In this document: positions 5,425 to 34,151 of the stretch, piece after piece
How positions within the stretch are numbered: the stretch's first letter is position 1
Layout of the letters: every line of letters starts with the position of its first letter
Source: Planctomycetota bacterium
Lineage (GTDB): Bacteria > Planctomycetota > UBA1135 > GCA-002686595
Direction: 5' to 3'
Assembly: GCA_029212845.1 (NCBI GenBank)
Contig: JARGPD010000032.1
Location: 1 to 34,151, forward strand
DNA length: 34,151 bases
Translations under genes and position numbers: made by a program
Notes under the pieces: generated by a model
The model's database searches: none
Told to the model about the DNA's origin: nothing
Seen by the model: only the letters and a program-made list of their open reading frames with translations

Positions 5425-6017
5425 CAGTTGCGGTACTTGTCGTTCAGGCCGACGCCGGCCAGGATCAGCGGCACGACCTTCTCGAGGCGCGAGAGCTTGG
5501 TCGCCTCGCGCTTGGCCGACGCGATGTGCTCGGCGTAGTCGCGCTGACGCCCCGGGGTCAGGCCGTCGAATGCCGCACGCCCACCCTGGACCGCACCTAG
5601 GGCAGCCTCCAGCTCGGCCGGCAGCTCGACCTCCTTGGCGACCTTCTTGCGCGGCACACGCGGCGCTTCGCTGGCGACCATGGCGCGCTTGAGGTAGTCC
5701 TTCAGCGCGCGCTTCTTGACCTGCCGCGTGGACTCGAAGCGCCACTGGCGCATCGTCTCGCTCTTGCCGCCCTTGGCCTGCTGCAGCACGCCGGCTGGAT
5801 CCTCGAGCCCGGTGCAGTCGTGGAACCACAGGCCGAAGTAGTCCTTGAAGCCCGCCAGGCTGACGACGTTACGGCCGCCGTGGGTGTAGGTCGGCGCGCC
5901 CCACTTGAGCGTCTCTTCCATCCCGGTCGACAGGGCGACCTCGCGCAGCAGGGAGAGGCCCTCGGACCACTCGGACTTGGACTCGATGTACGCTTCGACG
6001 GTCTTGGCTTTCGGCAT
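5421..6017 (-). CDS. YdeI/DUF1801 family protein
   Basis: The 198-residue product matches the two-part YdeI layout. The N-terminal DUF1801 region includes METLKWGAPTYTHGGRNVVSLAGFK-like segments with GLWFHDCTGLEDP. The C-terminal YdeI/OmpD-associated region, about residues 130-195, has ELPAELEAALG, FDGLTPGRQRDYAEHI and the usual ending AKREATKLSRLEKVVPLI. Members are linked to protection against cationic antimicrobial peptides and bacteriocins in enterics, but the biochemical role is not established. The ATG at 6017 begins the homology; a TAGGCT at 6059-6054 on the minus strand is a possible -10. The stop overlaps the convergent gene's stop. Confidence 0.85.
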   Translation of the reverse strand: MPKAKTVEAYIESKSEWSEGLSLLREVALSTGMEETLKWGAPTYTHGGRNVVSLAGFKDYFGLWFHDCTGLEDPAGVLQQAKGGKSETMRQWRFESTRQVKKRALKDYLKRAMVASEAPRVPRKKVAKEVELPAELEAALGAVQGGRAAFDGLTPGRQRDYAEHIASAKREATKLSRLEKVVPLILAGVGLNDKYRNC

Positions 6018-6089
6018 GGCTCGGAGGGGGGGACGAGTGCAGGAGGAGTGCCCAGCCTAGCGGATGGGCACGGATCTGCCGAGGCGCGG

Positions 6090-6129
6090 GGCACAGGCAC
6101 GCCGTTGCGTGGCTGGCGCGGCCTGTGCC
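6090..6129 (-). terminator. Long-loop hairpin downstream of the alpha/beta hydrolase
   Basis: GGCACAGGC (6090-6098) pairs with GCCTGTGCC (6121-6129), a perfect 9-base-pair stem around a 22-base GC-rich loop. On the minus strand it lies 24 bases beyond the hydrolase stop and upstream of the YdeI start. It lacks a T-run, so factor-independent termination is uncertain. Confidence 0.4.
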
Positions 6130-6152
6130 GGCCCGGAGCCCGGACGCTGCCG

Positions 6153-7073
6153 CTAGGGCCAGGGGTCGCTGCCGAGGTGCCCTTCGAGGAAGCCGAGCAG
6201 CTCGCGCTCGTAGCGCGCCGGATCGGCGCGCTGCAGGTCGACATGGCCGGCGCCCTCGAAGAGCGCCATGGCCTTCGGCTGCGCGGCGGCCTCGAACAGG
6301 GCGCGGGTGGCGGCGGGCGGCGAGTAGGGGTCGGCGCCGCCGCCCAGCACCAGCACCGGGCAGCCGGCCGCGCCGATGCGCTCGACCGGCCGGAGCTCGT
6401 CGACCGAGACCCCGAGCCGCAGGGGCACCTGCACCGTCAAGAGCGGCGTGAGCAGGCGCGCCCAGCCGCCCATGTGGTGGTCGAAGCGGTCCGAGACCGC
6501 CTCCTCGATGCTGGCGAAGACCTGCTCGATGACGAGCGCGTCGATGCCCAGGGGACCGGCGAGCACCGCCGCCGCGCCGCCGAGGGACCAGCCGATCACG
6601 ACCACGGGCAGCCCGGGCTGGCGCGCCTTCGCGAAGGCCACCGCCGCGCGCGCGTCCTCGCGCTCGAGGTGGCCGAGGGTCACGCGCTCGCCGGGACTCT
6701 TGCCGTGGGCCTGCAGGTCGACGAGCACGCACGCGTAGCCCGCACCGGCGAGCAGCTCGGCCCGCCCCAGCATGGCGCGCCGGTCGCCCTCCTTGGGGTG
6801 CAAGAGCACGGCGACCCCGCAGGGCTCTTCGACGGGCAGGAACCAGCCGGACAGGGTCGCGCCCGAGGCGCTCTCCAGGGCGAGCTCTTCGACCGCGCGG
6901 TCGGGCTGCGACCAGGCCGGCGGCAGGCCGAAGGAGCGCGGGTTGGGCGCCACGAGTCGGCCGCCGGCCAGCCAGGAGAAGCCCAGGCCGGCGAACAAGC
7001 AGCCGCCAAGGCCGAGCGCCAGCCAGCGCCGCCGCCGCCCGGCGCGCACCTTGGGGGCTGGGCCCCTGCTCAC
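6153..7073 (-). CDS. Membrane-anchored alpha/beta hydrolase
   Basis: The product (306 residues from the GTG at 7073) has a basic N terminus followed by one hydrophobic helix (about residues 15-33, LALGLGGCLFAGLGFSWLA), a membrane anchor or signal. An alpha/beta-hydrolase domain follows: ATLSGWFLP and VLLHPKEGDRRAM at the oxyanion region, the nucleophile elbow GWSLGG with Ser163, Asp248 in GGGADPYSP and His277 in EGAGHVDLQ. The layout resembles secreted or cell-envelope esterases of the YqkD/BAAT-like type; the substrate is unknown. The frame stays open far upstream to 7619, but this overlaps the divergent reductase gene. I chose GTG 7073 because it has a GGGG stretch about six bases upstream and gives a normal positively charged N terminus; GTG 7079 is equally possible. 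Confidence 0.82.
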   Translation of the reverse strand: MSRGPAPKVRAGRRRRWLALGLGGCLFAGLGFSWLAGGRLVAPNPRSFGLPPAWSQPDRAVEELALESASGATLSGWFLPVEEPCGVAVLLHPKEGDRRAMLGRAELLAGAGYACVLVDLQAHGKSPGERVTLGHLEREDARAAVAFAKARQPGLPVVVIGWSLGGAAAVLAGPLGIDALVIEQVFASIEEAVSDRFDHHMGGWARLLTPLLTVQVPLRLGVSVDELRPVERIGAAGCPVLVLGGGADPYSPPAATRALFEAAAQPKAMALFEGAGHVDLQRADPARYERELLGFLEGHLGSDPWP

Positions 7074-7297
7074 CGCCACCCCAGCGCCAGGGCACGGCGA
7101 GGCACCCGACCGAGCGTGCCGAGCGTGGTGGCGCCTGCGGTCACCCGGCCTCCAGGGCCGGCCGCGGGCCCCTGGAACCGCTCTGCATCGGAGGTCGTCA
7201 TGATCGCTGAGTGGAGTCAGCATAGCAGTCGCTGGGGACGTCCAGGTGCGCCTGCCCGGGGCCACGAGCCTGCTCGCCCCCAGAACTCCGGGCCCAT

Positions 7298-7306
7298 TGC
7301 TATCAT
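7298..7306 (+). promoter_or_regulatory. Candidate extended -10 promoter of the biosynthetic operon
   Basis: TGC-TATCAT is an extended -10 element (TGN plus a hexamer differing from TATAAT at one position). It lies in the divergent gap between the hydrolase and the first gene of the operon, 53 bases before the ATG at 7360. There is no convincing -35. This is the most AT-rich spot in the gap. Confidence 0.5.
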
Positions 7307-7320
7307 CGAGCTTCGGCTCG
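7307..7320 (+). other. UUCG-tetraloop hairpin next to the operon promoter
   Basis: CGAGC (7307-7311), TTCG (7312-7315), GCTCG (7316-7320) forms a perfect five-pair stem with the very stable UUCG loop. It directly follows the candidate -10 box. If transcription starts near 7313 the hairpin would be cut, so either the start is a few bases earlier or the dyad acts in DNA as a binding site. A chance occurrence in GC-rich DNA is possible. Confidence 0.35.
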
Positions 7321-7359
7321 TCCCTTCGCATCCCGACTGGCCCGGACCCCCACCCTCGC

Positions 7360-8403
7360 ATGAAAGCGGTCTCCTTCTCGCAGCATGGTTCCCTCGATGT
7401 CCTCGAATACGGGGACGTGCCCGACCCGGTGCTTGGACCCGGCGAGGTGCTGCTGCGTATCGAGGCCGCGGCCTGCAACTTCAACGACATCTGGGCCCGG
7501 CAGGGCCTGCCGCGGGTGACCCTGCCGCTGCCGCACGTGTCGGGCACCGATGCCGCCGGGGTCGTCGTCGCGATCGGCGAGGGCGTCACCGGCGTGGCGG
7601 TCGGCGACCAGGTCATCACCTACCCCGTGCGCGCCTGCCGCAGGTGCAACGCCTGCCTCGCCGGCGAGGAGGTCTTCTGCAAGGGCCTCAAGATCTGGGG
7701 CTTCCAGACCGGGCCCTTCGACGGGTCCTTCGCCGAGTACGCCAAGGTGCAGGTCGAGCAGGTGCTGCCCAAGCCCGCGCACCTCACGTGGGAGGAGGCC
7801 GCCGCGACGACCACGTCCCTCCTGTCGGTCTGGCGCATGCTCGTCACCCGCGCCCAGGTCCAGCCCGGCGACCAGGTCCTGATCTGGGGCGCGAGCGGCG
7901 GCACCGGCTCCTTTGCGATCCAGCTGGCCAAGGAGATCGGCGCGGTCCCGATCGCGGTGACCTCGTCCGAGGCCAAGGCGGAGTGGTGCTCCAAGATGGG
8001 CGCGACCCACGTGCTGCGCAGCGACTGCCAGGACATCCAAGCCGAGGTCGCCCGGCTGACCGATCGCCGCGGCGTCGACGTCGTCTTCGACCACGTGGGC
8101 GAGCCGGTCTGGTACACCAGCGTCGAGTGCCTGCGCTGGGGCGGCAAGATCGTGATCTGTGGCGCCACCGAGGGCTTCGAGGCCAAGATCGATCTGCGCT
8201 ACCTGTGGAACAAGCAGCTGTCGTTCCTTGGCTCCCACATCGGGACGCGCAAGGAGTGGGTCCAGGCGATGAAGCTGGTCGAAGCGCGCCGCATCCACCC
8301 GCCGGTCACCGAGATCTTCGACCTGCCGGGCGCCATCGAAGCCCAGCGCCGCATGGAGAACCGTCAGCTGATGGGCAAGCTCGCGATCCGGATCGGGTCA
8401 TGA
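7360..8403 (+). CDS. Zinc-type MDR superfamily alcohol dehydrogenase/enoyl reductase
   Basis: This 347-residue product is a medium-chain dehydrogenase/reductase. The GroES-like N-terminal half has FNDIWARQGLP and the structural-zinc cysteine set Cys93, Cys96, Cys99 and Cys107. The Rossmann half has GASGGTG at 177-183, the nucleotide-binding loop of the quinone-reductase/crotonyl-CoA-reductase branch, followed by VDVVFDHVGEPVW. It should reduce an alpha,beta-unsaturated or carbonyl group with NAD(P)H; the substrate is unknown. The frame extends upstream to 7246, but homology starts at the ATG at 7360 (MKAVSFSQHG). It is first of ten tightly packed genes; its TGA overlaps the next ATG (ATGA). 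In a pathway with ketosynthases it could supply an enoyl- or acyl-reduction step. Confidence 0.88.
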   Translation: MKAVSFSQHGSLDVLEYGDVPDPVLGPGEVLLRIEAAACNFNDIWARQGLPRVTLPLPHVSGTDAAGVVVAIGEGVTGVAVGDQVITYPVRACRRCNACLAGEEVFCKGLKIWGFQTGPFDGSFAEYAKVQVEQVLPKPAHLTWEEAAATTTSLLSVWRMLVTRAQVQPGDQVLIWGASGGTGSFAIQLAKEIGAVPIAVTSSEAKAEWCSKMGATHVLRSDCQDIQAEVARLTDRRGVDVVFDHVGEPVWYTSVECLRWGGKIVICGATEGFEAKIDLRYLWNKQLSFLGSHIGTRKEWVQAMKLVEARRIHPPVTEIFDLPGAIEAQRRMENRQLMGKLAIRIGS

Positions 8404-9386
8404 CGAGCCACGTCCAGATCCTCGGAATCGGACACAGCACGCCGACCCAGGTGCTCACGAACGAAGCGCTGATCGCACGCTTTGGCCTGAAGGTCGATGC
8501 GGAGTGGATCGAGCAGCGCACCGGCATCCGGGATCGCCACTGGCTCCAGGACGGGGAGACGACCTCGGACCTCGCCGTTGCGGCGGCGGAGCTGGCCCTT
8601 GCCCAGGCCGGGGTCAGGAGCACCGAGGTCGAGCGCATCGTGCTCGCCACGATCTCGCCCGACCACCCGAGCCCGTCGACGGCGACGATCGTCGAGCGCA
8701 AGCTCGGCGCGCGCTGCGCGGCCTTCGACCTGTCGGCGGCCTGCGCCGGCTTCCTCTACGGCCTCGAGCTCGGCGCGATGTCCGTGCGTGCCGGCGCGCG
8801 CAACGTGCTCGTGATCGCCGCCGACGCACGCAGTCGCTTCATCGACAAGCACGACCCTCGCTCGGCCGTGCTCTTCGCCGACGGGGCCGCAGCGGTCCTG
8901 CTCGGGCCCGCCGATGCGCCTGGCCTGCTCGCGATCCACCTCGGCGCCGAGGGCCGCGAGCGCATGGGCGCACACATGCCCGCCGGTGGAGCAGCCATGC
9001 CGACCACCGCCGCCACCGTCGAAGCGGGCCTGCACTTCCTCGTCGTCGACGGCAAGCGCGAGATCTTCGACCTGTTCGTGGCCTACACCCGCGAGGCCTG
9101 TGACGCCGTGCTGTCCCAGGCCGGGATCACGATCGACGACGTCGACCTGTTCATCACCCACCAGGGCAACGCGCGCATGGTCGAGCTGACGGTCGGAGCC
9201 CTCGGTGTCGATCCGGCGCGCGCGATGAACAACATCGCCCACCACGGCAACACCTCGAGCGCGACGGTCCCGATCGCCCTCAGCGAGGCGATCGCATCCG
9301 GACGCCTCGCCAGCGGCCAGACCGCGCTCCTGACCTCGGTCGGCGCTGGCTACACCTTCGGCGCCGCCCTCTACCGCATGCCCTGA
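8400..9386 (+). CDS. FabH-like 3-oxoacyl-ACP synthase III, catalytically complete
   Basis: The 328-residue product is a KASIII (thiolase-fold) condensing enzyme. The catalytic triad is in place: Cys115 in FDLSAACAGF, His254 in ITHQGNARM and Asn284 in HHGNTSSA. The family segments EWIEQRTGIRDR and FADGAAAVLLGP are also present. KASIII enzymes use an acyl-CoA or acyl-ACP starter and extend it with malonyl-ACP, starting fatty-acid or polyketide chains. In this operon it precedes a ketoreductase, acyl ligase and ACP, which points to a specialised starter unit instead of housekeeping fabH. Start ATG 8400 overlaps the previous stop. A pseudo-KASIII that has lost these residues is encoded 2.6 kb downstream in the same operon, suggesting a pair. 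Confidence 0.93.
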   Translation: MTSHVQILGIGHSTPTQVLTNEALIARFGLKVDAEWIEQRTGIRDRHWLQDGETTSDLAVAAAELALAQAGVRSTEVERIVLATISPDHPSPSTATIVERKLGARCAAFDLSAACAGFLYGLELGAMSVRAGARNVLVIAADARSRFIDKHDPRSAVLFADGAAAVLLGPADAPGLLAIHLGAEGRERMGAHMPAGGAAMPTTAATVEAGLHFLVVDGKREIFDLFVAYTREACDAVLSQAGITIDDVDLFITHQGNARMVELTVGALGVDPARAMNNIAHHGNTSSATVPIALSEAIASGRLASGQTALLTSVGAGYTFGAALYRMP

Positions 9387-10180
9387 TGCCGACCACCACC
9401 CACCAACGCACCGCGCTCGTCACGGGCGCCTCGCGCGGCATCGGTCGCGCCATCGCCCTCGAGCTCGCCCGGGGCGGCCACAGGCTGGTGTTGCACGAGC
9501 ACGAGCCCGGGAGCGGCGCCGAGACCGATGCGCTCCTGCGCGCGGCGCACAGCGAGCCGCGCTGGATCCACGGCGACCTGGCCCGTCCAGTTGGCGCCGG
9601 CGACACGGACGAGCCCGGCGGCCTCGGCGACCTCGCCGGGCTCGAGATCGACGTCCTGGTGCACAACGCCTCAGCCTTCGCACCCTATGGCCGAGTCGAG
9701 GACGGCGCGCGCGAGGCCGATGCCGAGGTGCTCGGGGTCGCCCTCACGGCCGGCATCGGTCTAGCCCGCGCCGTGACACCCGGCATGCGCGCGCGCGGCT
9801 TCGGCCGCTTGGTCTTCATCGGCTCTGCCGCCGGTCGCCTCGGCGCCGCCGGGCAGGTTGCCTATGCGACCGCCAAGGCCGGCCTGCTCGGGCTGACCCG
9901 CAGCCTCGCGGTCGAGCTCGGCCGCGCCGGCATCACCTGCAACCTAGTCGAGCCCGGCCTCATCGACACCGAGCGCACCCGCGCGGCGCTCTCGGGCGCC
10001 CAGTTCCAAGCCCTCGCCGCATCCACGCCGGTCGGCCGCGCCGGGAACCCCGAGGAGCTCGCGCGGCTCGTGGCCTTCCTCGCCAGTGACGACGCGGGCT
10101 ATGTCACCGGCGCGGCGATCCCCGCGGATGGCGGCCTCGGCCTCGGGGTCGTGCCACGCAACCAAGAGCCGCCGTGCTGA
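9386..10180 (+). CDS. SDR family 3-oxoacyl-ACP reductase (FabG-like)
   Basis: This is a 264-residue classical short-chain dehydrogenase. The cofactor motif TGASRGIG is at residues 13-20, with VLVHNAS as the NNAG-equivalent (here H-N-A-S), catalytic Ser147 and YATAK with Tyr160 and Lys164. The C terminus carries GNPEELARLVAFLASDDAGYVTGAAIPADGG, typical of FabG. It likely reduces a beta-ketoacyl thioester made by the preceding ketosynthase. The stop of the FabH-like gene and this ATG share one base (TGATG). The reading frame ends inside the start of the ligase gene. Confidence 0.92.
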   Translation: MPTTTHQRTALVTGASRGIGRAIALELARGGHRLVLHEHEPGSGAETDALLRAAHSEPRWIHGDLARPVGAGDTDEPGGLGDLAGLEIDVLVHNASAFAPYGRVEDGAREADAEVLGVALTAGIGLARAVTPGMRARGFGRLVFIGSAAGRLGAAGQVAYATAKAGLLGLTRSLAVELGRAGITCNLVEPGLIDTERTRAALSGAQFQALAASTPVGRAGNPEELARLVAFLASDDAGYVTGAAIPADGGLGLGVVPRNQEPPC

Positions 10181-11724
10181 TCCAAGACCTGCTCGAGCGC
10201 AGCGTCCAGCTGTTCCCGCACCGCACCGCCGTCGACGACGGCGAGCGCCGCTGGAGCTTCACCCAGCTGCGCGACCAGGTCTGCAACCTCGCAGCTGCCC
10301 TCACCCGCGCGGGCGTCGAGGCCGAGGACCGGGTCGCGCTGCTCAGCCGCAACCGCGCCGAGTACGTCGCCCTGTACTTCGCTGCCGCTCGACTCGGCGC
10401 CGTGCTCGTACCGCTCAACTGGCGCCTGACCCCGCCCGAGCTGGCCACGATCCTCGGCGACGCCGGGCCCGAGCTCGTCCTGGCCGAAGCCGAGCTCGCA
10501 CCGCGGCTCGAAGGTTGCGCACATGTGGTCCTCGGGCAGCTGCTCGGGGAAGGGCCAGACGCACCGGCCGACCCTCGCGATGGGCGTGGACGTCGCGCGG
10601 CTTCCTGGCAGCCCAAAGAGCCCAGCTCCGACGCCGCGGTCGCCGTGCAGATGTACACGTCGGGCACCTCGGGCCGGCCGAAGGGTGCCATGTTGACCCA
10701 CCGCAACTGCCACAGCATGACCAGCGCGTGGCTGCTCGACATGCCCCTCGATGCCGGCGACCGCTTCCTCCAGGTCACGCCGCTCTTCCACGTCGGCGGC
10801 CTCCTGATGCTGCTGTCCTGCGTCGCGAGCGGCGCGACCCTGCGGCTCCTGCCGGAGTTCGATCCCGTGGCCGCCATCGACGTGCTCAGCGGCGAGCCGA
10901 CGACCCACACCTTGATGGTGCCGGCCATGCTCGAGTGGCTCCTGGCCGAGCCCTACCTCGTGGGCAAGCAGCTCGCGCACCTCCGGCTGGTCGTCTATGG
11001 TGCCGCGCCGATCCCGCCAGCGACCCTCGAGCGTGCGCGCGCGCGGCTCGCCTGCGACTTCCTCCAGGGCTACGGCCTGACCGAGAGCACCGGGGTCCTG
11101 TTGACCCTGACCCCGCGCGACCACCGCGAGGGCGATGCGGTGCGCCTGGCCTCGGCCGGCCGCGCTGCGCCCGGCTGCTTGGTGCGCGTGGTCGACCGGA
11201 ATGGCGAGGAAGTCGAGGCCAGTGAAGATGGCCAGCCCGGTGAGGCCGGCGAGATCGTTGCCCGCGGCGACAACCTCTCCCCCGGCTACTGGAACGACCC
11301 GGACGGAACCGCCGCCGCCTGGACCGACGGCTGGTTCCACACCGGGGACCTCGCGCGCATCGACACCGCGGGCTACATCACCATCGTCGATCGCATCAAG
11401 GACATGATCCTGGTCGGCGGCGAGAACGTCTACCCGCGCGAGGTCGAGCTCGTGCTGCTCGAGCACCCCGACGTGCGCGACGCTGCGGTCGTCGGCATCC
11501 CCCACGACGTCTGGGGCGAGGAGGTCCTTGCGCTAGTCGTGCTCGAGCCGGGAAGGACCCAGACCGACCGCAGCCTGACGAGTCACTGCCGCGGCGCTCT
11601 GGCCCGCTACAAGTGCCCCACCCGCTTCCAGTTCCCTGGCGAGCTGCCGCGCAACGCCGCCGGCAAGCTCATGAAGAACGAGCTGCGTGCTCCCCACTGG
11701 CAAGGACGGCCCCGCCTCGTATGA
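10174..11724 (+). CDS. AMP-forming acyl-CoA synthetase/acyl-ACP ligase
   Basis: The 516-residue adenylate-forming enzyme has the phosphate-binding loop MYTSGTSGRPKGAMLTH at residues 160-176, the YGLTES adenine motif from residue 300, TGD with Asp392, KDMILVGGENVYPREVE as the hinge, and the catalytic C-terminal lysine 498 in AGKLMK. It activates a carboxylate with ATP and transfers it to CoA or a carrier protein. The ACP gene directly downstream overlaps by four bases, which favours loading onto that ACP, though transfer to CoA cannot be excluded. It starts at GTG 10174, overlapping the SDR stop by seven bases. Acyl specificity cannot be read from the sequence. Confidence 0.92.
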   Translation: MLIQDLLERSVQLFPHRTAVDDGERRWSFTQLRDQVCNLAAALTRAGVEAEDRVALLSRNRAEYVALYFAAARLGAVLVPLNWRLTPPELATILGDAGPELVLAEAELAPRLEGCAHVVLGQLLGEGPDAPADPRDGRGRRAASWQPKEPSSDAAVAVQMYTSGTSGRPKGAMLTHRNCHSMTSAWLLDMPLDAGDRFLQVTPLFHVGGLLMLLSCVASGATLRLLPEFDPVAAIDVLSGEPTTHTLMVPAMLEWLLAEPYLVGKQLAHLRLVVYGAAPIPPATLERARARLACDFLQGYGLTESTGVLLTLTPRDHREGDAVRLASAGRAAPGCLVRVVDRNGEEVEASEDGQPGEAGEIVARGDNLSPGYWNDPDGTAAAWTDGWFHTGDLARIDTAGYITIVDRIKDMILVGGENVYPREVELVLLEHPDVRDAAVVGIPHDVWGEEVLALVVLEPGRTQTDRSLTSHCRGALARYKCPTRFQFPGELPRNAAGKLMKNELRAPHWQGRPRLV

Positions 11725-11972
11725 AGACGCCCCCGACGCTCCCCACGGTCCTCGCTCTGCTCGAAGAGGCGACCCTCGCCGAAGAGGGCACGATCGATCC
11801 CGAAGCGCCGCTGCTCGGCATGGAGGGCTGGGACTCGATGGGCATGGTCATGTTCATCGCGCTCGTCCAGGACCACCACGGCTTCGAGCTCTCGATCACC
11901 GACCTGCGCGACTGCGTGTGCGGCAACGAGCTCTTGGTGGTCATCGCCGAGCGCGCCCGGGAACCGTCATGA
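11721..11972 (+). CDS. Acyl carrier protein
   Basis: This 83-residue acidic protein has the 4'-phosphopantetheine site at Ser39 in GWDSMGMVMF, preceded by GTIDPEAPLLGMEG, the helix-I-to-II segment of an ACP. The usual GxDSL is D-S-M here. It is flanked by an acyl ligase and a KASIII-like gene, and both junctions are four-base ATGA overlaps. I infer that it is the private carrier for this pathway. A phosphopantetheinyl transferase is not in the window and would be supplied from elsewhere. The ATG at 11721 is decided by the coupling with the previous stop. Confidence 0.9.
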   Translation: MKTPPTLPTVLALLEEATLAEEGTIDPEAPLLGMEGWDSMGMVMFIALVQDHHGFELSITDLRDCVCGNELLVVIAERAREPS

Positions 11973-13003
11973 CCTCGGGCGTGCGGCTGATCGCGAGCGC
12001 GGCCTCTGGTCCCGTCGACCTGGTCGGCGCGGCCGCACGGGTCGACAACCAGGCGCTCTTCGACCGCGCGCCCGTGCTGGCGCGCCACTTCGACCTGGAC
12101 CAGCTCGAGGCGCGCTTCGGAGTGCGCTCCCGCCAGTGGACCCGCGGCGTCGGGCTGGACGAGTCCGACCTGGCCCTGGGCGCGGTCCGCAGCCTGCTCG
12201 CCAAGGCCGCGCGGCGCCCGGACGAGCTCGCGCTCCTGATCGCGGTCACGTCGACGCCGAGCCGCGCCACCAGCTCGCTCGCCGGGCGCGTCGCGCGCGG
12301 ACTGAGCCTAAGCTGCCCGAGCTTCGACCTGCGCGCCGGTGGCGCAGGAGCGCTCTTGGCCTGGCGCGCCGCCGAGCGCTGGCTGGCCGGCACCCATGGC
12401 CTCGCCGTCGTGGTCGCCGCCGAGTCGATCTCGCCCTGGCTCGAGCTCGATACCGCGGCACCCACGCCGATCCTCTTCGGCGATGGCGCTGCTGCGATCC
12501 TGCTCCAGGGCGCGGCCGCGCAGCCCGGCCTGCTGGCCTTCGAGGGGCGCACCGACGCCCCCGCCGGCCAGGCCTTCACGGTGCCGGCGCCCCTGCCTCC
12601 TGGGCCGGACTCGACCCCCACAGACTTCTGCTTCCAGGACGCCGACCGCACCTACGCCGGCGCGATGGGCGAGCTGCGCGCCGCGCTCTGCTCGCGCCTC
12701 AGGGCGGCCCACGAGCTCGCCGCTACCGAGCGCGGCCTGCCGGCATCGATCGACGCCTTCTTCCCGATGGCGCCGAGCCTCGCGAGCGCCAGCGCCCAGG
12801 CCGATGCCTTCGGAGTCCCCGCCGAGCACACGCACACCTGCCTCCTCGACTGGGGCTGCCCCGGCGCCGCCGCGCCGCTGATCGCCCTCGCGGCGACCGA
12901 CCTGACCCAGCCCAAGACGCTCGCCCTCGCCGCCGTCGGAGGTGGCGCCCACGGCGCCGCGCTGACCTGGCGCCACTCGCCCCCCACCCAGGACTGCCCG
13001 TGA
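11969..13003 (+). CDS. KASIII-fold protein lacking all three catalytic residues (pseudo-ketosynthase III)
   Basis: The 344-residue product follows the FabH pattern: LEARFGVRSRQWTRG where FabH has WIEQRTGIR, then SCPSFDLRAGGAGALLAW, FGDGAAAILLQG, IDAFFPMAPS and LDWGCPGAAAPLIAL. Aligning by eye with the FabH-like protein at 8400-9386 puts Gly125 at the cysteine position, Met267 at the histidine and Cys297 at the asparagine, so it cannot condense by the known mechanism. A regulatory or structural partner role is likely. PqsB, the inactive FabH-fold subunit of PqsBC in Pseudomonas aeruginosa, is a precedent. Its start ATG overlaps the ACP stop, and its own stop overlaps the next GTG. Confidence 0.85.
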   Translation: MTSGVRLIASAASGPVDLVGAAARVDNQALFDRAPVLARHFDLDQLEARFGVRSRQWTRGVGLDESDLALGAVRSLLAKAARRPDELALLIAVTSTPSRATSSLAGRVARGLSLSCPSFDLRAGGAGALLAWRAAERWLAGTHGLAVVVAAESISPWLELDTAAPTPILFGDGAAAILLQGAAAQPGLLAFEGRTDAPAGQAFTVPAPLPPGPDSTPTDFCFQDADRTYAGAMGELRAALCSRLRAAHELAATERGLPASIDAFFPMAPSLASASAQADAFGVPAEHTHTCLLDWGCPGAAAPLIALAATDLTQPKTLALAAVGGGAHGAALTWRHSPPTQDCP

Positions 13004-14733
13004 CCCTTCGACCCGTTGACGGCCTCTTCATCTCCTACTACGAAGACATCGACCGCTGGGGCAACGACCACGCGCCGAGCCGCTCCGGTCCGACCGGGTC
13101 GCCGGCATACCTGGCGGCCGAGGCGGGCTCCGGCAAGGACACCCTGACCCACCGCATGGGTCGCCAGAGCGTCGGCATCGACGGCATGAACCACGACATC
13201 GCGCGCTACCTGTCGCGGGCGCGCTATGGCACGTCGATCGAGTACCGCCGCTACGACGCCTTCTCGCCGACGCACCTGAGCGGCGCGTACTACGAGTCGC
13301 TCGCCAAGCGGCACGGCTATGACCTGCACCACATCAACCACGCCTCGCGGGTCGACCTCGAGCGTCTCGCGCCGCAGCTAGCGCCGCGCTTCGTGTTCCT
13401 CTCGACGACCTACATGACCGAGACCTCGATGGCCCTCGACGCCGCCCAGCACGTGCGCGCGAACTGGCCCGGCGTGCCGGTCATCATGGGCGGTCTGGTC
13501 CTGGTCGAGCTCGAGAAGAGCCTGCCCGACGCGGTCTTCCAGACCTTCCTCAAGGCCTGGGGTGCCGACGCCTACGTGATCACGCCGCTGGGCGAGGCGG
13601 CCTTCCTGCGCCTGCTCGAGAGCGACGGAACCGACATCCCCGGGCTCCGCCTGCCCAAGACCTGGGTCCTGCGCGACGGACGCTACGCCGTCGACGCGAC
13701 GATCGAAGAGCCCGGGCTCGACATCAACGAGAACCACGTGCGCTGGGAGCTGCTCGACCCTGAGCGCTTGTACCACACGGTGCACACGCGCACGGCGCGC
13801 AGCTGCGCCTTCACCTGCGCCTTCTGCAGCTACTTCTCGAACCAGGGTCCGCTCGTGCTGAGCGACCCAGCCACCCTCGACATGGAGCTGCAGCGCCTGA
13901 GCTCGGTCGGCAGCGTGAAGAGCCTGATCTTCACCGACGACACGCTCAACGTCCCGATGCCGCGCTTCCTCGAGCTGCTCGAGGTGCTCAAGCGCTACGA
14001 CTTCGAGTGGTACTCCTACTTCCGCGCGCAGTTCGCCGACGAGGACTGCGCCAAGTCGATGATCGACTCGGGCTGCAAGGCGGTCTTCCTGGGCATCGAG
14101 TCCCTCGACGACAAGGTGCTGAAGAACATGAAGAAGGCCGCGACCCAGAAGGCCTACACGCGCGGCATGCGGGCGCTCAAGGCGGCCGGCATCCACACCC
14201 ACGCCAACTTCATCGTCGGCTTCCCCGGCGACCGGCCCGAGAACACGAAGGCGGCCATCGACTGGGTCGACGGCGAGGGCGTCGAGTTCTTCACGTTCAG
14301 CCCGTGGTACTGCTCGCCCGCGACGCCGATCGGCAAGCAGGAGCAGAAGGACAAGTACGGCGTGCGGGGCAACTTCTGGCGCTGGGAGCACGACACGATG
14401 AACTCGAGCCAAGCCCTCGAGCACGAGATCTGGGCGATCGAGAACGCCAAGTCCTCGGTCTTCGTCTCGGAGCTCTCCGCCCAGTGCTTCTGGTCCGAGA
14501 TCCAGCTGTACGCCAACGGCTTCTCCGCCGCCGAGATCCAACAGCTGATGACCTCGTTCAACGGGCTCGCCGGCAGGAACAGCCACATGGGCGACGTCCA
14601 GGAGCTGCCCGCGTACCAGGAGACCCAGCGCATCCTGCACACCCGCGAGCTGCCGGTCCCCCCGGGCTGCGAGCTGTACCGCACCGAGGTCGAGTCGCGC
14701 GCCACGATCGACCGGGCGACCGCCAAGGCATGA
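13000..14733 (+). CDS. PhpK-like radical SAM enzyme, putatively cobalamin-dependent
   Basis: The 577-residue product has an N-terminal region of about 250 residues resembling a B12-binding domain (FVFLSTTYMTETSMALD, then VPVIMGGLVLVE, a GG-containing strand-turn), though the DxHxxG base-off motif is not seen. The radical SAM core follows, with the [4Fe-4S] motif CAFTCAFC (Cys269, Cys273, Cys276), then FTDDTLNVP, VFLGIESLDD and ANFIVGFPGD. The C-terminal part (FFTFSPWYC, RWEHDTMNSSQALE) resembles the PhpK family of P-methyltransferases. This predicts methylation or radical C-C chemistry on a lipid or polyketide intermediate, but substrate and reaction are unknown. The start is GTG 13000, overlapping the previous stop. 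The next ATG overlaps this stop. Confidence 0.83.
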   Translation: MTLRPVDGLFISYYEDIDRWGNDHAPSRSGPTGSPAYLAAEAGSGKDTLTHRMGRQSVGIDGMNHDIARYLSRARYGTSIEYRRYDAFSPTHLSGAYYESLAKRHGYDLHHINHASRVDLERLAPQLAPRFVFLSTTYMTETSMALDAAQHVRANWPGVPVIMGGLVLVELEKSLPDAVFQTFLKAWGADAYVITPLGEAAFLRLLESDGTDIPGLRLPKTWVLRDGRYAVDATIEEPGLDINENHVRWELLDPERLYHTVHTRTARSCAFTCAFCSYFSNQGPLVLSDPATLDMELQRLSSVGSVKSLIFTDDTLNVPMPRFLELLEVLKRYDFEWYSYFRAQFADEDCAKSMIDSGCKAVFLGIESLDDKVLKNMKKAATQKAYTRGMRALKAAGIHTHANFIVGFPGDRPENTKAAIDWVDGEGVEFFTFSPWYCSPATPIGKQEQKDKYGVRGNFWRWEHDTMNSSQALEHEIWAIENAKSSVFVSELSAQCFWSEIQLYANGFSAAEIQQLMTSFNGLAGRNSHMGDVQELPAYQETQRILHTRELPVPPGCELYRTEVESRATIDRATAKA

Positions 14734-15929
14734 AGCCCGAGGTCGAAGCGAGCATCCGCGCCGAGTGGCGGGCGGCGCGGGCGCGGCCGGGTGCCGCGGG
14801 CGGCGGCTTCCAGGTCGCCGGTGACGTCTACAACGACTCCGAGCTGGCCGAGCGCGAGCGCCACCTGGTCTTCGCCCGGGCGTGGCTGCCGATCTGCCGG
14901 GCCAGCCAGGTCGAGGCCCCCGGCAGCTACCGCACCGCCGACCTCGCGGGGACGCCGATCGCGGTCGTGCGCTCGCTGGGGTCGGGGCAGCTGCGGGCCT
15001 TCCTCAACGTCTGCCCGCACCGCGGCAACCAGCTGCTGCGCGCGGCAGAGGGCAGCCTCGCGGACCGCGACGGCGTCGTTGCCTGCGCCTACCACGGCGC
15101 GGCCTTCGACGCGGGCGGCCAGGACGAGGGCGATCGGCAGCGACCGTTCGGCGCGATGGTCCCGGGCTCGGGCGGCTTCCAAGGGAGCGAGCTCGGGTGC
15201 CTCGAGGCGCTCGCGGTGGAGAGCCACTGGGGCTGGGTCTGGGTCCGCCGCAGCGGCACGATGTCCCTGGCCGACTTCCTCGGCGAGGAGCTCGCCGACG
15301 AGCTGGCTGGTTGGGACCTCTTGCGCGCCGCGCTGCACCGCAGCCACAGCTTCGAGGGGGCCTTCGACTGGAAGGTCGGGGTCGAGGCCTTCCTCGAGTC
15401 GATGCACCTGCCGACGATCCACCGGCGCACGGCGGCGCCCCTGCTCGACCACATGGCCACGGCCCAGGCGCAGCTCGGCAGCCACTCGCGCATGAGCACG
15501 CCCTTCCGCATGCCCGGCGCCTATGGCCCCGACGGCCTGCTCGGCAGCGCCGCCGCCGAGGCTGGCGTCGGGCTCTTCCCCGGGCTCAACGAGGTCCAGC
15601 GCACGAGCAATTTCAGCTACCTGCTGTTCCCCAGCACCGTGCTGAACCTCCTGCCGACGCACTTCACCTTGTTCCGCATCCTGCCCCTCGGCCTCGAGCG
15701 CTGCCGCGTCGAGTACGAGCTGTACGCGGCTCCGACGAGCACGCCGGCCCAGGCGGCCTACGTCGACTCGCTCGACCCCGGCTACCTGCAGCTGCTCGAC
15801 GAAGACCTCGACAACCTGGCCTGGATCCAGCGCGGCGTGCGCCACGGGGACCGGCCGCTGCTCACGCTGACCTCCCAGGAGCGGCGCATCCTGCACTTCC
15901 GCGAGACCCTCGCCGCCTGGATGGCCTGA
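14730..15929 (+). CDS. Rieske-type non-heme iron oxygenase, alpha subunit-like
   Basis: The 399-residue product begins with a Rieske [2Fe-2S] domain: Cys95-Pro-His97 in VCPHRGN, and Cys119-x-x-His122 in CAYHG. It continues with a mononuclear iron domain where His226 and His231 (ESMHLPTIH) are two ligands, and the carboxylate is probably Asp361 in DEDLDNLAWIQ. The preceding FDWKVGVEAFLE carries Asp where NWK is common. The spacing between the two Rieske motifs is 21 residues, longer than the common 15-17. It resembles ring-hydroxylating oxygenase alpha subunits, with no separate reductase or ferredoxin gene in the window; these would come from elsewhere. It may hydroxylate or oxidise the acyl product. 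Confidence 0.9.
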   Translation: MKPEVEASIRAEWRAARARPGAAGGGFQVAGDVYNDSELAERERHLVFARAWLPICRASQVEAPGSYRTADLAGTPIAVVRSLGSGQLRAFLNVCPHRGNQLLRAAEGSLADRDGVVACAYHGAAFDAGGQDEGDRQRPFGAMVPGSGGFQGSELGCLEALAVESHWGWVWVRRSGTMSLADFLGEELADELAGWDLLRAALHRSHSFEGAFDWKVGVEAFLESMHLPTIHRRTAAPLLDHMATAQAQLGSHSRMSTPFRMPGAYGPDGLLGSAAAEAGVGLFPGLNEVQRTSNFSYLLFPSTVLNLLPTHFTLFRILPLGLERCRVEYELYAAPTSTPAQAAYVDSLDPGYLQLLDEDLDNLAWIQRGVRHGDRPLLTLTSQERRILHFRETLAAWMA

Positions 15930-15941
15930 CCCGCGGACCGG

Positions 15942-17357
15942 ATGTCCTTCGCCAGCTCCCCCTACCTGCTCTTCCTGGCCCTGGTCCTGGCCGCCTTCCC
16001 GTTCCTGCCCCGGCGCGGGCGCGTGTGGGGCATGCTGCTGGCGAGCTACCTGTTCTACTTCGGGCAGCAGCCGCTGCACATCCTGGCGCTCTTCCTGTCG
16101 ACCCTGCTCGACTTCGGCGTCGGCCTGGCCCTGGCTCGCTCGACCGAGCCACGCGCGAGGCTGCGCTGGCTGCTGCTGAGCCTCGTCGTCAACGTCGGCG
16201 CGCTGGTCGGCTTCAAGTACACCGGCTTCCTGGCGGAGACCTGGAACCTGACCGGCGAGCACCTCGGCCTGGCCCTGCCGGTGCCCGACTGGGCCCTGCC
16301 GCTTGGCATCTCCTTCTACACCTTCCAGACGATCGGCTACACGATCGACGTCTACCGGGGTCGCATCGAGGCCTGTCGCAGCCTGGCCGACTACGGCCTC
16401 TACGTGGCCTTCTTCCCGCAGCTCATCTCGGGTCCGATCGAGCGCGCCGAGCACCTGCTGCCCCAGCTGCGCAACATGCAGCCGCCGACATCAGGCAACC
16501 TGTCGGTCGGCCTGCGCCGCATGCTGTGGGGCCTGTTCAAGAAGGTCGTGCTCGCCGACCGCTTCCGGCCGCTGGTGCTCGGCAACCTAGCCGACCCCGG
16601 TGGCCTCGACAGCATGACGCTGGGTGCCAACAGCCTTGGCCTCTTGGCGCTCTTGTACCTGGACTTCAGCGCCTACACCGACCTCGCCCGCGGCAGCGCG
16701 CGCCTGTTCGGGGTCGAGCTGGTCCAGAACTTCGACCGCCCCTTCGCGGCGACGTCGCCGGCCGACTTCACCCGCCGCTGGCACATGTCCCTGATCCGCT
16801 GGATCGAGGTCTACCTTTACGCTCCGCTGCTGCGCGGCCGCCTGACCCACGCCAAGATCTGGGGCACCAACACGCTCCTGATCGGGCTGTTCGGCCTGTG
16901 GCACGGTCCCTTTGCCAGCTACCTGATCGGCGGCGTCTGCCTCGGCGCCTGCATCTCCGTGCAGCAGAGCCTGCGCCTCTGGGCGCACCAGCAGCGACGG
17001 CGCCCGAAGCCGCTCGGCCCCGCCGCTGCCCTCGCCGGTTGGGCCCTGACGATGGCGATCTGGTCCCTGTTCGTGGTCGCGCTCTTCGCGCCCGACTCGG
17101 GCCAGGCTGGCGCCTACTACGCCGCGCTCTTCACCCCGAGCCTGCCGAGCGCTGGGCAGCTGCCGGGCCTCGCGACTGCCTTCGCGCTGATGGCCCTAGC
17201 CCTTGGGGTGCACCTCGCCGCGGGCCGCATGGACCTCGACCGCGCCTGGTTCCGACTGCCGCGCGCCCTGCGCCCGGCCCTCTTGCTGCTCGGCGCCTGG
17301 GGCATCGCGCGCTTCGCCGCTCCGGCCTCCGAGGCCTTCATCTACTTCCGCTTCTGA
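15942..17357 (+). CDS. MBOAT family membrane-bound O-acyltransferase (AlgI-like)
   Basis: The 471-residue integral membrane protein has the MBOAT layout: many hydrophobic segments, GISFYTFQTIGYTIDVYRG, FFPQLISGPIERA, YLDFSAYTDLARGSARLFG, FTRRWHMSLIRWI and the invariant histidine 321 in GLWHGP. These are the signatures of the AlgI/DltB branch, which moves acyl groups across the membrane onto polymers or lipids. It starts 12 bases after the Rieske gene stop. Its stop codon shares one base with the ATG of the SGNH gene, which resembles AlgI plus AlgJ/AlgX-like pairing. The ATG at 15942 is preceded by a weak GGA-containing site. The acylated target is unknown, but its position at the operon end suggests the product or an envelope anchor. 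Confidence 0.93.
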   Translation: MSFASSPYLLFLALVLAAFPFLPRRGRVWGMLLASYLFYFGQQPLHILALFLSTLLDFGVGLALARSTEPRARLRWLLLSLVVNVGALVGFKYTGFLAETWNLTGEHLGLALPVPDWALPLGISFYTFQTIGYTIDVYRGRIEACRSLADYGLYVAFFPQLISGPIERAEHLLPQLRNMQPPTSGNLSVGLRRMLWGLFKKVVLADRFRPLVLGNLADPGGLDSMTLGANSLGLLALLYLDFSAYTDLARGSARLFGVELVQNFDRPFAATSPADFTRRWHMSLIRWIEVYLYAPLLRGRLTHAKIWGTNTLLIGLFGLWHGPFASYLIGGVCLGACISVQQSLRLWAHQQRRRPKPLGPAAALAGWALTMAIWSLFVVALFAPDSGQAGAYYAALFTPSLPSAGQLPGLATAFALMALALGVHLAAGRMDLDRAWFRLPRALRPALLLLGAWGIARFAAPASEAFIYFRF

Positions 17358-18430
17358 TGGCAGCCACCTCCACCCGTCGAGCCCGCATCGCGGTGCTCCT
17401 GGTCGTCGCTAGCCTCGTGGCCGGCGAGGTCCTGCTGCGTGCCACGGCCGACCTGCGCAGCCTGGCCCAGACGCCCGATCCCGAGCTCGGCTGGCTGCTG
17501 CGCCCGAACTTCGACGGGCGTCTCGAAGGAGCCCGCGTGCAGACCAACTCGGACGGCTTCCGCGGGCCCGAGTGGTCCGCGCCAGAAGACGGCGGCCAGC
17601 CCGAGCCCACCGGCGACGTGCCCCTGCGCATCGCCGTGCTGGGCGACTCGGTGGCCTTTGGATTCGGGGTCGAGCACGAAGAGCTCTTCGCGGTGCAGCT
17701 CGAAGCGCGGCTCGCCGCCAGCCTGGGCGAGGGGCGCGTCGAGGTGCGCAACTTCGCCCTGCCCGGCAAGTGCTGGACCCAGATGCGCGCGATCCACGAC
17801 CGCTACGTCGCGCCCTGGCAGCCCGACGTCGTGGTCGCCATGCTGAACGACGCGTCCCACCGTCCGCCCATGCCGATCGAGCCGCGCACCTGGAGCGACG
17901 CGCTGCTCGCGGAGTCGGCCCTGCATGCGGCCTGGGAGGCCAGCCTCGAGCTGGGGCCGAAGCTCGAGCTGTGGAGCGCGCCGCCCGTCCGCAGCCCGGC
18001 CTGGCGACGCAGCTACGACTGCCAGCGCTTCCCCTTCGCCCTGCGCAACCGCGAGCCGTTCGTCGCCATGACCGAGGACCTCGCCCGCCTGCGCGGCCAG
18101 CTCGCGGAGCGGGGCTCCCAGCTGCTGCTCGTGGCCCTGCCCCAACAGGCTCACTTCCGCGAGCACCCGGACAGGCGCCTCGGCCTGTTCTTCCAGAAGC
18201 ACGCTGGGCAGCTCCAGCTCGCGCTGATCGACCCCGCGGTGCGCTTCCGCGCATGGGCCAGGACCGCGAGCGCGAGCCCAGCTGCGCGTGCCGCCAACGC
18301 GGCCGGTCCGGAGCCTACGTTCGGCCGCGAGCTGTTCCTCGCCCACGACCCTGATCACTGGTCCCCCGCAGCCCACGCCCTGATGGCTGACGTCGTGTCC
18401 GAGACGCTGCTCACTCGGCAGGAGCCGTAA
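17357..18430 (+). CDS. Membrane-anchored SGNH/GDSL hydrolase
   Basis: The 357-residue product has an N-terminal basic stretch and hydrophobic segment (about residues 9-25) acting as anchor or signal. A block with DPELGWLLRPNFDGR and NSDGFRG precedes the SGNH domain, which has nucleophile Ser98 in VLGDSVAFGFG and the distal dyad Asp331/Asp333-His334 in HDPDHWSPAAH. The LNDAS at about residues 165-169 is in the block III region. SGNH proteins of this kind often act next to MBOAT acyltransferases, taking the acyl group or removing it outside the membrane. It overlaps the MBOAT stop by one base (TGATG). It is the last gene of the tightly packed block. Confidence 0.88.
   Translation: MAATSTRRARIAVLLVVASLVAGEVLLRATADLRSLAQTPDPELGWLLRPNFDGRLEGARVQTNSDGFRGPEWSAPEDGGQPEPTGDVPLRIAVLGDSVAFGFGVEHEELFAVQLEARLAASLGEGRVEVRNFALPGKCWTQMRAIHDRYVAPWQPDVVVAMLNDASHRPPMPIEPRTWSDALLAESALHAAWEASLELGPKLELWSAPPVRSPAWRRSYDCQRFPFALRNREPFVAMTEDLARLRGQLAERGSQLLLVALPQQAHFREHPDRRLGLFFQKHAGQLQLALIDPAVRFRAWARTASASPAARAANAAGPEPTFGRELFLAHDPDHWSPAAHALMADVVSETLLTRQEP

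Positions 18431-27994: not shown

Positions 27995-34151
<6,157 letters not shown>

Follow-up and report, generated by a model that had tools for sequence, protein, structure and literature searches.

The gene at positions 11969 to 13003 of the 34,151-nucleotide stretch of planctomycete DNA analysed here (the window) encodes a protein that has the KASIII (FabH-type) fold without the catalytic Cys, His and Asn. On balance, this pseudo-KASIII (pKS) is probably a non-catalytic KASIII paralog that acts as partner subunit of an intact FabH, in the manner of PqsB and PqsC, and the acyl product would go to a Dlt-like transfer. We base this reading on the loss of the triad throughout the pKS family, the co-occurrence of pKS with FabH, their kept adjacency, purifying selection, the fold and the precedent of PqsBC. 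The features of the window discussed below are as follows.

7360-8403, plus strand: Zn-type enoyl/acryloyl-CoA-type reductase (MDR family)
8400-9386, plus strand: FabH (KASIII) with intact Cys-His-Asn, proposed catalytic partner
9386-10180, plus strand: FabG-like SDR ketoreductase
10174-11724, plus strand: acyl-CoA/acyl-ACP ligase (AMP-binding)
11721-11972, plus strand: dedicated acyl carrier protein (ACP) with a GWDSM motif and few acidic residues in helix II
11969-13003, plus strand: pKS, KASIII fold without catalytic Cys/His/Asn (Gly125, Met267, Cys297)
12332-12346, plus strand: codons of R122-A-G-G125-A, the pKS family signature, in which Gly125 stands in place of the catalytic Cys (positions calculated from the residue numbers)
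12767-12769, plus strand: codon of Met267, at the catalytic His position of pKS
12857-12859, plus strand: codon of Cys297, at the catalytic Asn position of pKS
13000-14733, plus strand: B12-binding radical SAM enzyme, best match PhpK family
14730-15929, plus strand: Rieske ring-hydroxylating-type oxygenase
15942-17357, plus strand: DltB-like MBOAT O-acyltransferase
17357-18430, plus strand: SGNH/GDSL-like protein, possible DltD/AlgX-type partner of the MBOAT

Catalytic positions and fold of the pseudo-KASIII

The pKS gene encodes 344 residues, and its third codon positions showed the high GC content expected of a real gene. A 4-bp overlap joins its start to the stop of the ACP gene, in agreement with the preliminary description, which had placed pKS directly after that gene, and the pKS stop overlaps the GTG start (13000) of the radical SAM gene. 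As pKS overlaps both neighbours, it sits within a tightly packed operon.

The residues Gly125, Met267 and Cys297 had been assigned by hand to the catalytic positions. A phmmer alignment to solved FabHs matched them to Cys112, His244 and Asn274 (E. coli numbering), respectively, and a multiple alignment with E. coli FabH agreed, so that all three replacements were confirmed to the exact residue. In the E. coli FabH sequence used for the multiple alignment, Trp32, Phe87, Cys112, His244 and Asn274 fell at the expected positions. No Cys-His-Asn triad appeared elsewhere in pKS in these alignments. The triad by which active FabH/KASIII enzymes are recognised is therefore replaced in pKS by Gly, Met and Cys. 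All 21 other KASIII-type proteins aligned as a control (relatives, same order) kept Cys, His and Asn, indicating that the triple loss is specific to pKS. The profile models linked the protein to FabH with low scores: 35.7 bits with the Pfam ACP_syn_III model, above the cut-off, and 81.5 bits with the NCBIfam FabH model, compared with a cut-off of 249 and a score of 317 bits for the FabH at 8400-9386.

An AlphaFold2 model of pKS, built from a 7-sequence alignment, had a mean pLDDT of 84.4 and a pTM of 0.88. Among the matches listed by Foldseek, the PDB entries matching the model were of FabH type throughout, led by Vibrio FabH2, E. coli FabH and BioZ and followed by chains of PqsBC entries. The Pfam match, the pTM and the Foldseek matches place pKS in the KASIII fold, which is thus predicted to be intact, as had been claimed from the sequence alone.

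Conservation and origin of the pKS family

Orthologs of pKS were found in 9 of the 154 genomes of the class, the window's genome included, covering eight genera of one family. A protein search of the 154 genomes retrieved seven relatives with pKS, all of them from the window's family, and a profile search added one more. In a phylum sample of 392 genomes, family members were found only in G004 and the window's genome; a third match, in G309, was more distant and kept the triad. A scan of genome contigs with the single pKS protein gave no match, while a motif-based profile scan covering about 85,000 species turned up six loci, of which five were titled Planctomycetota or Planctomycetaceae and one was titled uncultured bacterium; this profile scan rested on one motif, and relatives without that motif could escape it. 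The genomes compared were drafts, and those bearing a record title were metagenome assemblies.

The catalytic Cys position was Gly in all eight tabulated pKS proteins, within an R-A/G-G-G-A motif. The catalytic His position was Tyr in six, Met in the window and Ser in L016, and the catalytic Asn position was Cys in six, Ala in L012 and Val in L016. Arg122, Gly124, Gly125, Pro210-Pro211, Tyr229 and a GGG motif near the end were invariant in the 7-sequence alignment. The presence of Cys in six of the eight proteins and the conservation of Arg122, Tyr229 and GGG could mean that pKS catalyses a reaction from another active site, perhaps as an acyl transferase or hydrolase that relies on Arg122 or on the Cys at the former Asn position. 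We consider such an enzyme improbable: the change of this Cys to Ala in L012 and to Val in L016 means that it is not an essential nucleophile family-wide, and the Arg at Cys-3 occurs in the triad-bearing relative from G309 as well and is thus probably ancestral. Cys297 as a new nucleophile was rejected, as it is not conserved in the pKS family.

The pKS proteins were of full length (335-363 aa), and the full-length copies from eight genomes shared roughly 30-40% identity with the window copy. For the sole close pair, dN/dS (Nei-Gojobori) was 0.26 for pKS and 0.09 for FabH; distant pairs were near saturation and were left out. Judged from these sequences, pKS is under purifying selection, and it evolves about 2.4 times faster than the partner FabH. 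The pKS of G053 was split over two frames (L018:5864-6786, minus strand) in a draft metagenome, by assembly error or by a real break. The faster evolution and this frameshifted copy are what would be expected if pKS were a relict on its way to being lost and tolerated without function. Such a relict is very hard to reconcile with full-length copies in eight genomes that share invariant motifs, with the dN/dS of the close pair, and with the overlaps with both neighbours in the window. The preliminary description, according to which the gene is not decaying, was thus borne out by orthologs in nine genomes, the motifs and the dN/dS.

In a maximum-likelihood tree, the pKS proteins and the cluster FabHs each formed a group of their own, both with a support of 100/99. 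Closest to the pKS group was the KASIII of G309, from another planctomycete family, which keeps Cys, His and Asn and already has Arg at Cys-3 and GGG. Since pKS is sister to the G309 KASIII and apart from the cluster FabHs, it descends from a separate KASIII lineage, and an origin of pKS as a duplicate of the cluster FabH was rejected by the tree. The sister pairs L013 and L014, L015 and L042, and L012 and L017 recurred among the pKS proteins and among the FabHs, as would fit joint inheritance; long branches within the pKS group make its inner placements unsure. The expectation that pKS forms its own clade, always with a FabH partner, was upheld.

Proposed partner FabH, gene cluster and putative interface residues

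In the FabH at 8400-9386, the catalytic Cys, His and Asn are all present, as previously described. A longer open reading frame (5820-9386) was rejected as the FabH gene, since the enoyl-reductase gene at 7360-8403 overlaps the FabH start at 8400. Cluster FabHs were present in 10 of the 154 genomes, with the Asn kept in all ten, and all nine pKS genomes carried an intact one (hypergeometric P of about 1e-13, relatedness ignored). In the tenth FabH genome, G044 (a 65% complete draft), FabH was followed by a radical SAM gene, with no pKS on that contig; in G047, pKS and FabH were on separate contigs. Another possible KASIII pair in a relative was seen at L063 (G055:C155, about 9765-11069), where two tandem KASIII genes both have Cys-His-Asn and Arg at Cys-3.

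The core common to the loci comprised the enoyl reductase, FabH, acyl-AMP ligase, ACP, pKS and one or two PhpK-like radical SAM enzymes. Genes for FabG, Rieske, MBOAT and SGNH proteins were present in many loci, and several loci end at contig edges. Gene order was shuffled between genomes, and pKS adjoined FabH or ACP at every locus: the neighbour was FabH in L013, L014 and L017, and ACP in the window, L012, L015, L016, L018 and L042. Where FabH and pKS adjoin, they are read in different frames. The radical SAM protein at 13000-14733 scored 341 bits with TIGR04479 (PhpK P-methyltransferases), below the cut-off of 600, and is thus related to this family and not a member. L013, L014, L015 and L016 carried a tandem pair of PhpK-like B12 radical SAM genes, and the window has one such gene. 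In G053, a gene with an eCIS_core domain (L018:3718-5592, minus strand) was located between pKS and the radical SAM gene. At the end of the window, 27995-34117 on the minus strand, open towards the contig end, encodes a large type I PKS-like protein with fatty-acyl-AMP ligase, ACP, KS, AT and ACP parts. This protein runs beyond the window's GTG start in the contig, with a short stretch of unread bases upstream, and its C-terminal end holds two tandem repeats of about 150-160 residues (about 27995-28954) that had no significant Pfam match.

The position of E. coli Phe87, which we take to reach into the acyl pocket of the partner subunit and close it, was Ser in all ten cluster FabHs and Thr, Ser or Gly in all eight pKS proteins; nearly all ordinary FabHs tested had Leu, Met or Phe. 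With small residues at this position, a wider or longer acyl pocket across the interface is plausible. The position of E. coli Lys214, presumably part of the ACP-docking patch, was Asp or Glu in all ten cluster FabHs and Arg or Lys in ordinary FabHs, and the Arg249 position was variable. The cluster ACPs had a common GWDSM/L-G motif and were without most acidic helix-II residues of E. coli AcpP. In pKS, the equivalent of Trp32 was lost from every protein and that of Arg249 from nearly all; both residues are assumed here to contact CoA or ACP in FabH. At the level of sequence, the Lys214 change, the loss of acidic ACP residues and the loss of Trp32 together suggest a dedicated, non-standard carrier interaction. 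Mirror-tree distances of pKS and FabH gave r = 0.16 without the close pair (seven genomes), and those of pKS and the ligase gave 0.34, so that this comparison does not mark out FabH in particular.

These residues also bear on whether pKS could be a stand-alone, homodimeric scaffold that binds ACP or acyl groups and protects the ACP-bound chain or presents it to the radical SAM and Rieske enzymes. Such a scaffold would fit the full-length KASIII fold, the six loci with pKS directly downstream of ACP and the several loci in which pKS adjoins the radical SAM gene. The missing Trp32 and Arg249 equivalents and the three loci in which pKS is beside FabH and not beside ACP make it rather unlikely.

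Proposed role and comparison with known systems

For pKS as the partner subunit, we infer a physical heterodimer, a role in the pocket, ACP binding, an order of steps and a product. FabH would carry out the Claisen condensation with its own Cys-His-Asn, and pKS would complete the dimer, line the distal end of the acyl pocket from across the interface and help to present the dedicated ACP. FabG and the enoyl reductase would reduce the acyl chain, and the B12 radical SAM and Rieske enzymes would modify it. The DltB-like MBOAT/SGNH pair would then pass it from ACP to an acceptor outside the cytoplasm. Against the partner-subunit reading, a FabH with a full triad could act as an ordinary homodimer, and the separate origin of pKS, its faster rate, the low r and G044 without pKS on its contig also count. 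The preliminary description had called a heterodimeric condensing enzyme or an ACP-binding scaffold plausible; this is partly supported, as pKS forms its own clade, is constantly paired with FabH, adjoins FabH or ACP, is under purifying selection and has an intact fold. The separate origin of pKS is a new element, as is the resemblance of the cluster to a Dlt-type acyl-transfer system and not to a quinolone pathway.

In the DltABCD system, D-alanine is transferred from a carrier protein to an extracytoplasmic acceptor. The cluster resembles this system in having an AMP-forming ligase, a carrier protein, a DltB-like MBOAT and an SGNH protein, but its ligase is FadD-like and it includes acyl-building genes, and D-alanine specificity is not implied. 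The cluster MBOATs scored 113-121 bits with the DltB model, all below the cut-off of 375, and DltB was their only NCBIfam match. The remaining cluster genes would build and decorate the acyl group, and the cluster may direct a planctomycete lipid modification that is as yet undescribed.

Among proteins of solved structure, BioZ (3-oxopimeloyl-ACP synthase) was one of the closest to the partner FabH, with about 210 bits. A BioZ-like glutaryl specificity of the window FabH was not supported, as the position of Arg147, which presumably binds the glutaryl carboxylate in BioZ, is Phe. Arg147 of BioZ is named in PMC8024396.

Type II PKS KS/CLF pairs also combine an active condensing enzyme with an inactive paralog, and are encoded together with a dedicated ACP. 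KS and CLF are of FabF type, whereas the window FabH and pKS are both of FabH type.

By analogy, PqsBC is the closest precedent for the FabH/pKS pair: both are of FabH type and encoded together, with one member lacking the triad and the other having the nucleophile. PqsB is without all three catalytic residues and forms a FabH-like heterodimer with PqsC, which mimics the FabH homodimer, has a cavity reaching into PqsB and was termed a unique arrangement (PMC4807248). PqsC lacks the Asn and has a Cys-His dyad, whereas all ten cluster FabHs keep the full triad; the pair may thus work like PqsBC but is not counted as a member of that type. Unlike PqsB, pKS is of full length with a distinct Arg-Gly-Gly signature, its heterodimer is a proposed one, and its cluster includes ACP, B12 radical SAM, Rieske and MBOAT genes. 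No pseudo-KASIII or planctomycete cluster of this kind was found described in the open-access papers searched. We tentatively propose, as a possibility that falls somewhat short of probable, a second, independently evolved FabH:pseudo-FabH heterodimer, with an inactive subunit from another KASIII lineage, an ACP and FabH without the usual charge-based docking, and a product attached outside the cell by a Dlt-like module. If true, finding an inactive and an active FabH conserved together in a phylum far from Pseudomonas, the inactive one having its own origin, would suggest that the arrangement known from PqsBC can arise repeatedly, and it would provide a second system for asking what a dead FabH-like subunit does.
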